From Rhizobium oryzihabitans (GTDB lineage Bacteria > Pseudomonadota > Alphaproteobacteria > Rhizobiales > Rhizobiaceae), in the NCBI RefSeq assembly GCF_010669145.1, contig NZ_CP048635.1, positions 1,884,382 through 1,948,381 of the forward strand: a stretch of DNA of 64,000 bases. The letters are read 5' to 3'. The notes beneath the pieces are model-generated. The model saw only the letters and a program-made list of their open reading frames with translations. It had not been told where the DNA came from and did no database searches. Below, in pieces: positions 1-2,307 of the stretch (within the stretch, counting starts at the first letter, position 1; every line of letters starts with the position of its first letter). The translations under genes were made by a program, and so were the position numbers.

Positions 1-2
1 GC

Positions 3-20
3 GCCGCAGTCGGCAAGTAA
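3..20 (+). CDS. C-terminal end of an upstream gene (partial)
   Basis: The first 20 bases read in one frame as A-A-V-G-K followed by TAA, and a strong terminator begins 30 nt later. This fits the last codons of a gene that starts before the window. Five residues are too few to name the product. The call rests on the stop and the terminator only, so it is weak. Confidence 0.35.
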   Translation, partial: AAVGK

Positions 21-50
21 TCAAGGCGAAAATGCCGCTTTTGAATGCCC

Positions 51-76
51 AAACGCCCGCTTAGCGGGCGTTTTTG
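51..76 (+). terminator. Rho-independent terminator
   Basis: A perfect 10-bp stem (AAACGCCCGC / GCGGGCGTTT) with a TTA loop is followed by a T-rich tract. It lies just after the partial upstream reading frame and would end that transcript. Confidence 0.85.
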
Positions 77-95
77 TTTTGGAAGCCTCTCCTCC

Positions 96-170
96 GTCAT
101 CCTCGGGCTTGACCCGAGGATCCATTGCTTTCAACGGGGTGTGGATCCTCGGGTCAAGCCCGAGGATGAC
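96..170. repeat. RIME-like intergenic palindrome
   Basis: A 29-base arm starting GTCATCCTCGGGCTTGACCC (96-124) is repeated inverted at 142-170, with an 17-base centre. Each arm is itself palindromic (CCTCGGGCTTGACCCGAGG). This is the style of the rhizobial RIME intergenic elements. It is non-coding; open frames that run through it are accidental. Confidence 0.8.
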
Positions 171-324
171 GTTGAGTATGTGCAAAGCGATGTCGTTCCA
201 CGCGGGAAGACGACGGAAGCGGACCAATCGCCAGGAATTTTCGATGTTGATAGTGCCATGCGCCAAACGCATATCTGCGCTGCAACCTTGTGCCTGCAAA
301 ACGCGCAGGAAAATGCTATCTTCC

Positions 325-487
325 AATCATCGAAACGGATGTACCTCCTCCCACATCGTTTTGGTATGCGGGCGATCCCACTCCTCCTCCCAAGGATTGC
401 CCCGGGGACAGCGGTTTTTCTCCTCCCATATCGCTGTTCATTTTTTCAAAAAGCCTGCCGCACCTCCTCCCGCGGCAGGCTTTTTTG
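325..487 (+). ncRNA. Trans-acting sRNA with four anti-Shine-Dalgarno hairpins (alpha-r14/NfeR1-like)
   Basis: Four consecutive stem-loops each carry an anti-Shine-Dalgarno sequence in the loop. Stems are 338-342/353-357, 371-378/394-401, 408-413/432-437 and 452-460/473-481. The loops hold CCTCCTCCC at 344-352, 383-391 and 463-471, and CTCCTCCC at 420-427. The last hairpin is a Rho-independent terminator with a T tract at 481-486. Tandem hairpins with CUCCUCCC loops are the hallmark of the rhizobial alpha-r14 family (NfeR1 in Sinorhizobium) and of the related cuckoo RNAs, which are thought to block ribosome binding sites. A TATCTT at 317-322 could be the -10 box, but no good -35 is seen, so the 5' end is approximate. 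No protein-coding frame explains this regularity. Family assignment is from memory; the structure is read from the sequence. Confidence 0.8.
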
Positions 488-523
488 TTTTCGTCTCTTC
501 GTTTTGCCTTCAGGAAAAATAGC

Positions 524-967
524 TCAGTCGAAAACCATCATGCCGATTGGCGTGACGGCGCGCGTGCCGGCGCGTCTGGCAAGTGCGTAGGTAAGGCACT
601 GTTCCACGGCATCCTGCGGTACGGGCTTTGCAATCACCCCGGCGCCGATGCCGAGATTGACCACCACTTCCGGGTTCGCCGTCATGAAGATCACCACGAC
701 GCCATGATCCTGAGACAACCGCCGTCCGATTTCGGGGCCCGTCTGGCCGTCGGCAAGGTTGACGTCAACGAAGGCGATGTCGGCGCGGCTGCCGAGCGCC
801 ACGGCCTGATCCAGCCGGTTGGCGATGCCGATGACATTGGCCTCTTCTTCCGCCTGCAGAATGGAATCCTCGATATCCATGGCGATGAGGAACTCGTCTT
901 CCACGATCAGCACACGCGGTTGTTCCGTGTGGAAACCCGGTTCGCTTTGCAAGACGTCTGCCAACAT
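524..967 (-). CDS. Single-domain response regulator receiver protein
   Basis: A 147-residue protein made almost entirely of one CheY-like receiver domain (about residues 17-132). The acidic pocket is LIVEDE near residue 20, the phospho-acceptor Asp lies in AFVDVNLADG, and the conserved Lys is in VIAKPV. There is no output domain, so it probably works as a phosphate relay, sink or protein-binding switch. A good ribosome site (GGAGG) precedes the ATG. It is transcribed alone, away from ftsZ. Its promoter region resembles an EcfG-type general-stress promoter (see 1011-1035). Downstream, the last sRNA hairpin is also symmetrical enough to terminate this transcript. The partner kinase is not identifiable from context. 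Confidence 0.88.
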   Translation of the reverse strand: MLADVLQSEPGFHTEQPRVLIVEDEFLIAMDIEDSILQAEEEANVIGIANRLDQAVALGSRADIAFVDVNLADGQTGPEIGRRLSQDHGVVVIFMTANPEVVVNLGIGAGVIAKPVPQDAVEQCLTYALARRAGTRAVTPIGMMVFD

Positions 968-1010
968 ATGCCTGCCTCCATTCTGTGCGCTTTAGCGCTG
1001 TCGGCAAGCA

Positions 1011-1035
1011 AACACTTGTCGGAGCAACTCGTTCC
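1011..1035 (-). promoter_or_regulatory. Possible EcfG-type promoter of the receiver gene
   Basis: Read on the minus strand: GGAAC, 16 bases, then TGTT. The EcfG consensus is GGAAC-N16/17-CGTT, so one position of the -10 differs. It sits 44-68 nt ahead of the receiver start. The remaining bases 1036-1344 up to ftsZ hold no gene I can support. Confidence 0.35.
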
Positions 1036-1344
1036 AAAGTGAGATAAACATGGTGAATGGAGTGTAAACCACATGGCTTTTCAGCTATCACCTCTCGATA
1101 GCGAAGCAGTTGATTCGGTTCGGTTTTCATCCGGGGAAGGGTCGGAGAAAGTCGCCGTAGCGCATCTTTCGTCCCAGGAGTACAGGCCATTTGCCGCAAG
1201 CGGCAGAGCGGCTTACATGCAAATTCAAAGCGTTACAGCCTCCTTCGCGCATCAGAAGGAAAGTGCTGGGACCTTGCCGATCATTCGCGTGCCGCGCTCA
1301 AAAAACGGCGCGAGACCCTATGAGTTCAGAAAGAGAATAAAACG

Positions 1345-2307
1345 ATGACCCAGTCTCCGCGCGCCACCATTGCCCGAAACACGCCCAATATCGCCGTTAT
1401 CGGCGTAGGTGGAGGTGGCGGAAATGCGATCAACAACATGATCGCCGAGGGCATTGGCGGCGTCGATTTCATCGCGGCCAATACGGATGCGCAGGCGCTG
1501 AAGAAGACCAACGCACCAAGGCTCGTGCAGCTCAGCTCCGAGCTGACCGGCGGGCTGGGAGCGGGTGCTGATCCGGAAGTCGGCCGCCAGGCCGCGATCG
1601 ATTCGCTCGACGAAATCATGGATCACCTGAGCGGTTACGACATGTGCTTCATCACCGCCGGCATGGGCGGCGGCACCGGTACGGGTGCTGCACCCGTCAT
1701 CGCCGAAGCCTGCCGTGCGAAGAACATCCTGACGGTCGGCGTCGTCACCCTGCCGTTCAGCTTCGAGGGTGCGCGCCGCATGCGGGCTGCCGAATACGGC
1801 TTCGCCAATCTGCTGAACACCGCCGATACCGTCATCGTCATTCCCAACCAGAACCTGCTGCGCATTGCGGATGCCGGCACCACCTTCGAGAACGCGCTGA
1901 AGACGGCCGACAAGGTTCTGTCGCTCGGCGTGCGCTGCGTCACCGATCTCATCCTGCGCGAAGGTCTGGTCAATCTCGATTTCGCCGATGTGCGTTACGT
2001 CATGAAGAACGGCGGACGTGCATTGATGGGCACGGCCCAGGCCAAGGGCGAGAAGCGCGCCTCGGAAGCGGCCGCTGCGGCCATCGCCAATCCGCTGCTC
2101 GGCGAACCCTCGCTGAAAGAAGCGCGCGGCGCGCTGGTCTCCATCTCGGGCGGCAACGATCTGACGCTTTACGAGATCGATGAGGCGATGACGCTGGTGC
2201 GCGAGGCGGTCAGCGAGGAGACGGATGTGGTGATGGGCGCCTCCTTCGATCCGACGCTGGACGGCGCTTTCAAGATTTCCGTCGTGGCCACCGGCCTGCG
2301 CAACTGA
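1345..2307 (+). CDS. FtsZ-like tubulin GTPase lacking the C-terminal linker and tail
   Basis: A 320-residue protein covering the whole FtsZ GTPase core: nucleotide-binding GGGGGNAINNM near residue 22, the tubulin signature GGGTGTGAAP near residue 110, and the T7-side domain up to VVATGLRN at the end. FtsZ normally continues with a long disordered linker and a C-terminal peptide that binds FtsA, ZipA and other partners. Both are absent here, and the stop follows the globular fold directly. Agrobacterium has such extra, short FtsZ paralogues besides the essential division protein, and this matches that type (FtsZ_1-like). It could co-polymerise with, or tune, the main FtsZ, but could not recruit tail-binding partners itself. 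It stands alone with its own terminator. The start was chosen as the ATG giving the usual short N-terminus. Confidence 0.9.
   Translation: MTQSPRATIARNTPNIAVIGVGGGGGNAINNMIAEGIGGVDFIAANTDAQALKKTNAPRLVQLSSELTGGLGAGADPEVGRQAAIDSLDEIMDHLSGYDMCFITAGMGGGTGTGAAPVIAEACRAKNILTVGVVTLPFSFEGARRMRAAEYGFANLLNTADTVIVIPNQNLLRIADAGTTFENALKTADKVLSLGVRCVTDLILREGLVNLDFADVRYVMKNGGRALMGTAQAKGEKRASEAAAAAIANPLLGEPSLKEARGALVSISGGNDLTLYEIDEAMTLVREAVSEETDVVMGASFDPTLDGAFKISVVATGLRN

Follow-up and report, generated by a model that had tools for sequence, protein, structure and literature searches.

At positions 329-488 of its forward strand, the window (the whole 64,000-nt stretch of Rhizobium oryzihabitans DNA analysed here) very probably encodes a four-hairpin alpha-r14 ('cuckoo') small RNA (sRNA), orthologous to C2_1831446F of Agrobacterium tumefaciens C58, that would be activated through LsrB/VtlR and would block Shine-Dalgarno (SD) sequences with loops acting as redundant copies. 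The locus is the counterpart of a known sRNA. Its features, in window coordinates, are the following.

259-272, forward strand: predicted LsrB-type promoter motif TGCG-N6-GCAT, at -70 to -57 from the projected 5' end
269-281, forward strand: proposed VtlR box GCAT-N3-TG-N3-T (GCATATCTGCGCT), overlapping the LsrB-type motif
316-321, forward strand: -10-like box CTATCT with no clear -35; orthologs and paralogs have a similar box in the same place
329-488, forward strand: alpha-r14 sRNA with four hairpins, about 160 nt, placed by the Rfam RF02344 match and the projected ends of C58 C2_1831446F
329-365, forward strand: hairpin 1 (H1), 13 bp with two G-U pairs and a bulged G338, loop ACCTCCTCCC, anti-SD loop at 343-352
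370-402, forward strand: hairpin 2 (H2), 9 bp with one G-U pair, 15-nt loop at 379-393, anti-SD at 383-391
406-439, forward strand: hairpin 3 (H3), 10 bp with two G-U pairs, loop TTTTCTCCTCCCAT at 416-429, anti-SD at 420-427
448-485, forward strand: hairpin 4 (H4), the intrinsic terminator, 14 bp without G-U pairs, anti-SD in loop ACCTCCTCCC, T-run at 481-486
524-967, reverse strand: response-regulator receiver protein (PF00072, 33.6 bits against a cut-off of 30.2), a convergent neighbour that adjoins the sRNA in 23 loci of the genus
1345-2307, forward strand: FtsZ-family protein of 320 aa (PF00091 and PF12327), a synteny marker found in the same 23 loci

Fold and conservation of the four hairpins

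The RNA contains four exact copies of CTCCTCCC (345-352, 384-391, 420-427 and 464-471), and CUCCUCCC is unpaired in the loop of each of the four hairpins on the forward strand. The anti-SD of H3, TCTCCTCCC, is the sole one of the four without a leading C. The MFE of 325-487 was -62.3 kcal/mol compared with -39.1 ± 3.7 kcal/mol for 200 dinucleotide shuffles (z = -6.2, none as low), and the mean unpaired probability per motif was 0.999-1.0 for the four motifs. When the motifs were held fixed and the other bases shuffled, the layout with every motif in a hairpin loop of its own appeared in none of 300 shuffles. Fold, unpaired probabilities and shuffles thus confirmed the original prediction of four hairpins, each with an anti-SD loop and the last doubling as the terminator. 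Its coordinates (325-487) were off by no more than a few bases, since projecting the published C58 ends onto the window gives 329 and 488. Its statement that every stem pairs exactly was slightly wrong: a G is bulged out of H1, and five of the pairs are G-U. Across both strands of the whole window, CTCCTCCC occurs eight times against 2.03 expected, a count also reached by one of 100 shuffles; the four sites outside the sRNA are scattered between 13.2 and 19.0 kb.

The response-regulator and FtsZ-family neighbours are shared by 23 loci in 23 genomes, the window's included. All 23 loci carry four motifs (exact in 22), and the motifs are unpaired in the MFE fold of every one. The original prediction had named a lack of loop conservation in related genomes as evidence against it; the loops proved to be conserved. 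Mean column identity among the 23 orthologs was 94%, and double-sided changes were seen in five of 44 pairs, one in hairpin 1 (of 13 pairs) and four in hairpin 2 (of nine).

Covariation was also assessed in 50 distinct four-motif sequences, for hairpins 1, 3 and 4, where 98.6% of cells were paired. Double-sided changes occurred in eight of 31 pairs, compared with one to five for slid partners and with four of 500 shuffles that reached eight; the structure tested was derived from the same 50-sequence alignment as these pair counts. The covariation score of the set was reached by none of 500 shuffles, and the number of pair types (22) was below the shuffled mean of 25.2. In hairpin 1, pairing is kept in about 96% of cells across the eight consensus pairs, and most of the covariation comes from two pairs whose compensatory differences separate two paralog groups; these two best-covered changes may represent few or single events. 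Hairpin 3 had double-sided changes in five of its 10 pairs, and hairpin 4 gave no evidence of covariation in the four-motif alignment, nine of 13 pairs being invariant. RNAalifold recovered hairpin 2 among the 23 orthologs but not in an alignment of 53 four-motif loci, which we ascribe to misalignment of its variable stem.

Family membership and distribution

At gathering thresholds, the single Rfam match in the window was ar14 (RF02344), at 364-487 with 96.5 bits against a cut-off of 58.8, which bears out the assignment to the alpha-r14/NfeR1 family. The match spans model positions 1-123, and because the 123-position model starts after H1 and ends at the terminator, Rfam annotation alone would give three loops for 329-488. 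RF02344 omits the 5' hairpin of four-loop members, so that annotation with it undercounts loops and misplaces the 5' end; that the model misses hairpin 1 of such members is useful to know. The three hairpins of alpha-r14, each with CCUCCUCCC in its loop, correspond to H2-H4, with loop 3 reading UCUCCUCCC, and one extra hairpin stands at the 5' side. Like alpha-r14/NfeR1 (RF02344; Sinorhizobium meliloti Smr14C2, SmelC397), the window RNA combines the Rfam match and the loop motif with a -10-like box and an LsrB-type motif, so that the conserved upstream activator motif and -10 box of alpha-r14 are both present and a clear -35 is not. It differs from the three-hairpin NfeR1 (PMC10746234) in the fourth hairpin added at the 5' end.

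As stated in the original prediction, alpha-r14 RNAs are described with three loops (PMC7143759, PMC10746234). Its suggestion that a four-loop form might be a new variant was not supported. PMC3927594 (2011) describes RFMSmelA075 with three hairpins and RFMSmelA099 with four, CCUCCUCCC being present in each loop, and suggests a single family in which the number of modules varies. The window RNA has the four hairpins with an anti-SD loop motif of RFMSmelA099, for which the relevant passage of that paper names A. tumefaciens L5 (RNA25) as a four-hairpin member verified by sequencing and Northern blot. Both the four-loop form and an Agrobacterium member known to be expressed had therefore been published already, and a four-motif locus is present in 38 of 39 genomes of the genus. 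The cuckoo family (Reinkensmeier and Giegerich 2015, through the citing PMC4504443) comprises RNAs with 2-4 hairpins, and the description excerpted from PMC4504443 shows no difference from the window RNA. Nor is an anti-SD in the terminator loop special, as had been proposed, since the third loop of three-loop paralogs is the terminator too (L002 in our set; C58 C1_109477F).

The CcsR1-4/CIN1 RNAs of Rhodobacter sphaeroides resemble the window RNA in having related anti-SD hairpins, several in tandem. They differ in being co-transcribed with ccaF1 (DUF1127) and processed from that transcript (PMC10253847, in part); Pfam found no DUF1127 in the five neighbouring ORFs of the window.

The ar14 family was found in all 39 genomes of the genus (own included), with 135 matches. 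The own genome has four loci above the cut-off, two with three and two with four loop motifs. Motifs were counted in 133 of the 135 matches (L139 and L140 left out, as were L005-L009, which lie below the cut-off), allowing one mismatch per 8-base motif. Four motifs were found in 53 matches, three in 79 and one in a single match; the three-motif class includes L035 and L112, in which a fourth, one-mismatch motif lies 53 and 58 nt past the third. Three-motif loci occur in 39 of 39 genomes, and G020 is the genome without a four-motif locus. Of the 53 four-motif loci, 47 match all four motifs exactly. Counting a motif as unpaired when 7 or more of its 8 bases are so in the MFE fold, 46 loci have every motif unpaired and seven do not. 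The second four-loop paralog of the own genome, L003 (G000:C4:1811281-1811403), carries CCTTCTCCC in its terminator loop, and the similar loci L055 and L058 carry CCTCCTCCC there.

A scan of named genomes for the response regulator returned 80 loci, 13 of which have a four-motif cluster beside it. Among the genomes concerned are A. tumefaciens B6, A. pusense, A. arsenijevicii and strains filed as Rhizobium. All 13 duplicate records already counted among the 23 syntenic loci, so they contribute names only, not further evidence. The other 67 response-regulator loci (47-59% identical) had no four-motif cluster within 3 kb on either side. A literature search found no paper connecting the C58 locus tags with the FtsZ neighbour.

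Expression of the C58 ortholog and promoter motifs

Genome G007 has ar14 matches at C1:109473-109594:+, C2:1831482-1831606:+ and C2:1230297-1230418:+. Table 4 of PMC3738593 lists for C58 the RNAs C1_109477F (109477-109594, 118 nt, Northern about 120) and C2_1831446F (1831446-1831607, 162 nt, Northern about 160 nt, intergenic). Since coordinates and strand coincide at these two loci, we take G007 to be C58; the available part of that table has no Northern-validated RNA at its third locus (C2:1230297). The G007 match C2:1831482-1831606:+ falls inside C2_1831446F, and in the syntenic ortholog (L073) its 162 bases start with ATCGAAACGG on the first base of H1 and end at the terminator. The RNA at 329-488 is the ortholog of C2_1831446F. 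Both are syntenic and have four hairpins, the terminator and the promoter motif, at lengths of 160 nt (window) and 162 nt (C58). The differences are a few substitutions, two single-base deletions in the window and the third loop, which reads TCTCCTCCC in the window and CCTCCTCCC in C58.

In the passages of PMC3738593 on expression, C2_1831446F had RPKM values without TEX of 689 (log) and 272 (stationary) in rich medium, and of 3458 without and 3970 with inducer in AB minimal medium. The values with TEX were 10541, 2865, 25085 and 25357 in the same order, higher than without TEX in all four conditions, and the RNA was commoner in AB minimal than in rich medium. Its ends come from RNA-seq, and the table does not mark it as RACE-validated. 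The transcript of 150-165 nt that the original prediction had put forward as a check is thus matched in C58, where the ortholog is transcribed according to RNA-seq and a Northern signal of about 160 nt, and its end projects to 488.

The LsrB-type motif, in the form TGC[AG]-N6-GCAT, is present in all 23 syntenic loci, starting at -70 (21 loci) or -69 (two), a count made without a shuffle control; it also occurs in 15 of the 30 other four-motif loci and in six of the 80 remaining loci. At S. meliloti PnfeR1, TGCA-N6-GCAT within about -72 to -57 is the LsrB site, and transcription requires LsrB (PMC10746234). PnfeR1 also has an NtrC site, whereas such a site is described as not evident in A. tumefaciens in the same source, which gives CTATAT as the NfeR1-type -10. 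The box GCAT-N3-TG-N3-T was hypothesised for VtlR of A. tumefaciens in PMC7486931. Of the 23 syntenic loci, 22 have the complete box, its offset varying by no more than one base, compared with 0 of 132 far-upstream controls and one of 133 shuffles. Among the other four-motif loci it is complete in 21 of 30, and among three-motif loci in 16 of 79, the other 63 being one base short. Judging from these sequence motifs, control of the RNA by LsrB/VtlR is likely. A study of VtlR in C58 reports a single further site for its 15-bp consensus, vrsA, and passages of PMC11975290 treat sRNAs in general terms, with LsrB dependence of this RNA not found there. A scan for E. coli-type consensus promoters found no site in window positions 1-1500. 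These results allow C58 C2_1831446F to be classed as an alpha-r14 RNA of the four-loop type. Its probable LsrB/VtlR site would tie it to a regulator that is required for interaction with plants.

Upstream of the sRNA promoter, at 95-175, the window contains an inverted repeat around GTCATCCTCGGGCTTGACCCGAGGATCC, presumably a dispersed rhizobial palindromic repeat.

C2_1831446F is most likely the sRNA L5, because the one four-motif ar14 locus of the C58-matching genome is orthologous to the window's. It is very unlikely that the window RNA corresponds to another published RNA of C58, the VtlR-activated VrsA (L4). Both do lie on the linear chromosome, flanked by the 3' ends of two genes, and the promoter of 329-488 has a VtlR-type box, but VrsA is reported as about 300 nt long and antisense to atu4670, whereas the window RNA measures about 160 nt and is listed as intergenic. 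Moreover, the four-hairpin family member named in the passages of PMC3927594 is L5, not L4, and the C58-matching genome carries one four-motif locus. On size and the L5 family assignment, we set the VrsA identity aside. More improbable still is a dual-function RNA from which a short peptide would be read through the CTCCTCCC repeats. Stops are indeed absent from two frames across the RNA in 21 of the 23 orthologs, and from all three in the window, although stop-codon counts in the three frames of the 23 orthologs are not decisive on coding. Orthologs range from 155 to 162 nt over this stretch, with lengths that differ modulo 3, so the frames shift between species; in addition, paired columns change compensatorily, and the C58 RNA was published as an intergenic ncRNA (PMC3738593, Table 4).

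Proposed function and multi-loop arrays

As a four-hairpin alpha-r14 sRNA, the RNA would be activated by LsrB/VtlR to act in trans, its exposed CUCCUCCC loops would pair with purine-rich Shine-Dalgarno regions of mRNAs, and the pairing would block translation initiation, as was demonstrated genetically for S. meliloti NfeR1. By this analogy, covering of Shine-Dalgarno regions is the most likely role. In reporter assays, NfeR1 represses mRNAs via its anti-SD loops, and its three motifs are redundant (PMC10746234). Since all loops of the window RNA present the same seed and the NfeR1 motifs are redundant, more loops would mean more binding sites, not more kinds of target, whereas the original prediction had suggested a greater multi-target capacity: the four loops would be redundant copies of one seed, giving higher valency or dose and not four specificities. 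The presence of three- and four-loop paralogs in one genome makes the effect of loop number directly testable. Because NfeR1 was reported to be Hfq-independent in S. meliloti (PMC10746234), the Hfq pull-downs proposed earlier may be uninformative; the 12 places covered in PMC4201532, of 27 that matched, do not name the 329-488 RNA in connection with Hfq, and nothing on alpha-r14 RNAs was found in those of PMC12501420.

Perfect GGGAGGAG occurs 3-9 bases before ATG at 37 sites of the own genome, compared with nine for the reversed pattern; these sites, counted irrespective of genes, would be no more than a sign that perfect partners exist. The known NfeR1 target ntrB has AAGGAAGG before its start here. 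Its duplex with loop 2 scored -9.0 against a shuffled mean of -12.2, and 418 of 500 shuffles were as good or better, in a crude test in which stem bases and long bulges take part. Duplexes with loops 1, 3 and 4 scored -10.0, -11.7 and -16.7, without a shuffle control. As a target, ntrB was negative in this crude hybridisation test, its leader not fitting well here.

Two other accounts of the loops seem unlikely to us. The RNA might serve mainly as a decoy or sponge: rather than silencing defined mRNAs, it would use its CU-rich loops to titrate away RNAs that carry GGAGG (other sRNAs or mRNA leaders). An identical exposed seed in four loops and several paralogs per genome would suit titration, and the ntrB result was negative; on the other side, the characterised relative NfeR1 represses mRNAs through anti-SD motifs in reporter assays (PMC10746234), and the cited literature names no sponge partner of alpha-r14 in the passages concerned. 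It is similarly doubtful that loop number is an evolving valency setting, with multi-loop RNAs holding several mRNAs or polycistronic SD sites cooperatively and not as simple redundant copies. On that doubtful account, Agrobacterium RNAs, with three or four loops, would stand at the low end of the valency range, and the DUF1127-linked arrays of other members of the order, with eight or nine, at the high end. We favour SD blocking by redundant loops.

Three spaced motifs were sought in 397 genomes of the order, sampled from a larger group; 102 genomes matched, in 27 of 142 genera, compared with two genomes for the reversed control. In family f6, L261-L265 each have two clusters of at least three anti-SD motifs about 0.1-0.9 kb apart in one genome. 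No DUF1127 relative was found at these loci by tblastn, and in L261, L262 and L265 some motifs lie outside the hairpin loops of the MFE fold.

In genomes of family f11 of the same order, eight or nine anti-SD hairpins stand in tandem close to a DUF1127 (CcaF1-like) gene. Of six loci taken from its genus g103, five (L251-L255) carry nine motifs each, all nine in hairpin loops; the sixth, L266, lies near the end of a short contig and has five. In g18 and g96, L256 and L258 have eight motifs and L257 has nine, seven of them exact. Among the papers listed by literature searches, none was recognised as describing nine-loop arrays. The arrangement beside DUF1127 resembles that of CIN1/CcsR as excerpted from PMC10253847, with more loops than the 2-4 of the cuckoo RNA, and the eight- and nine-loop arrays are probably CIN1-type loci. 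The DUF1127 protein of L251, identified by Pfam, has a relative in 11 of 16 array loci (L251-L260 and L266). The L251 array itself (L251:1490-1816, genome G408) folds with a z of -13.2, and its last three loops match ar14 with 81.1 bits, whereas L256 gave no match above the cut-off.
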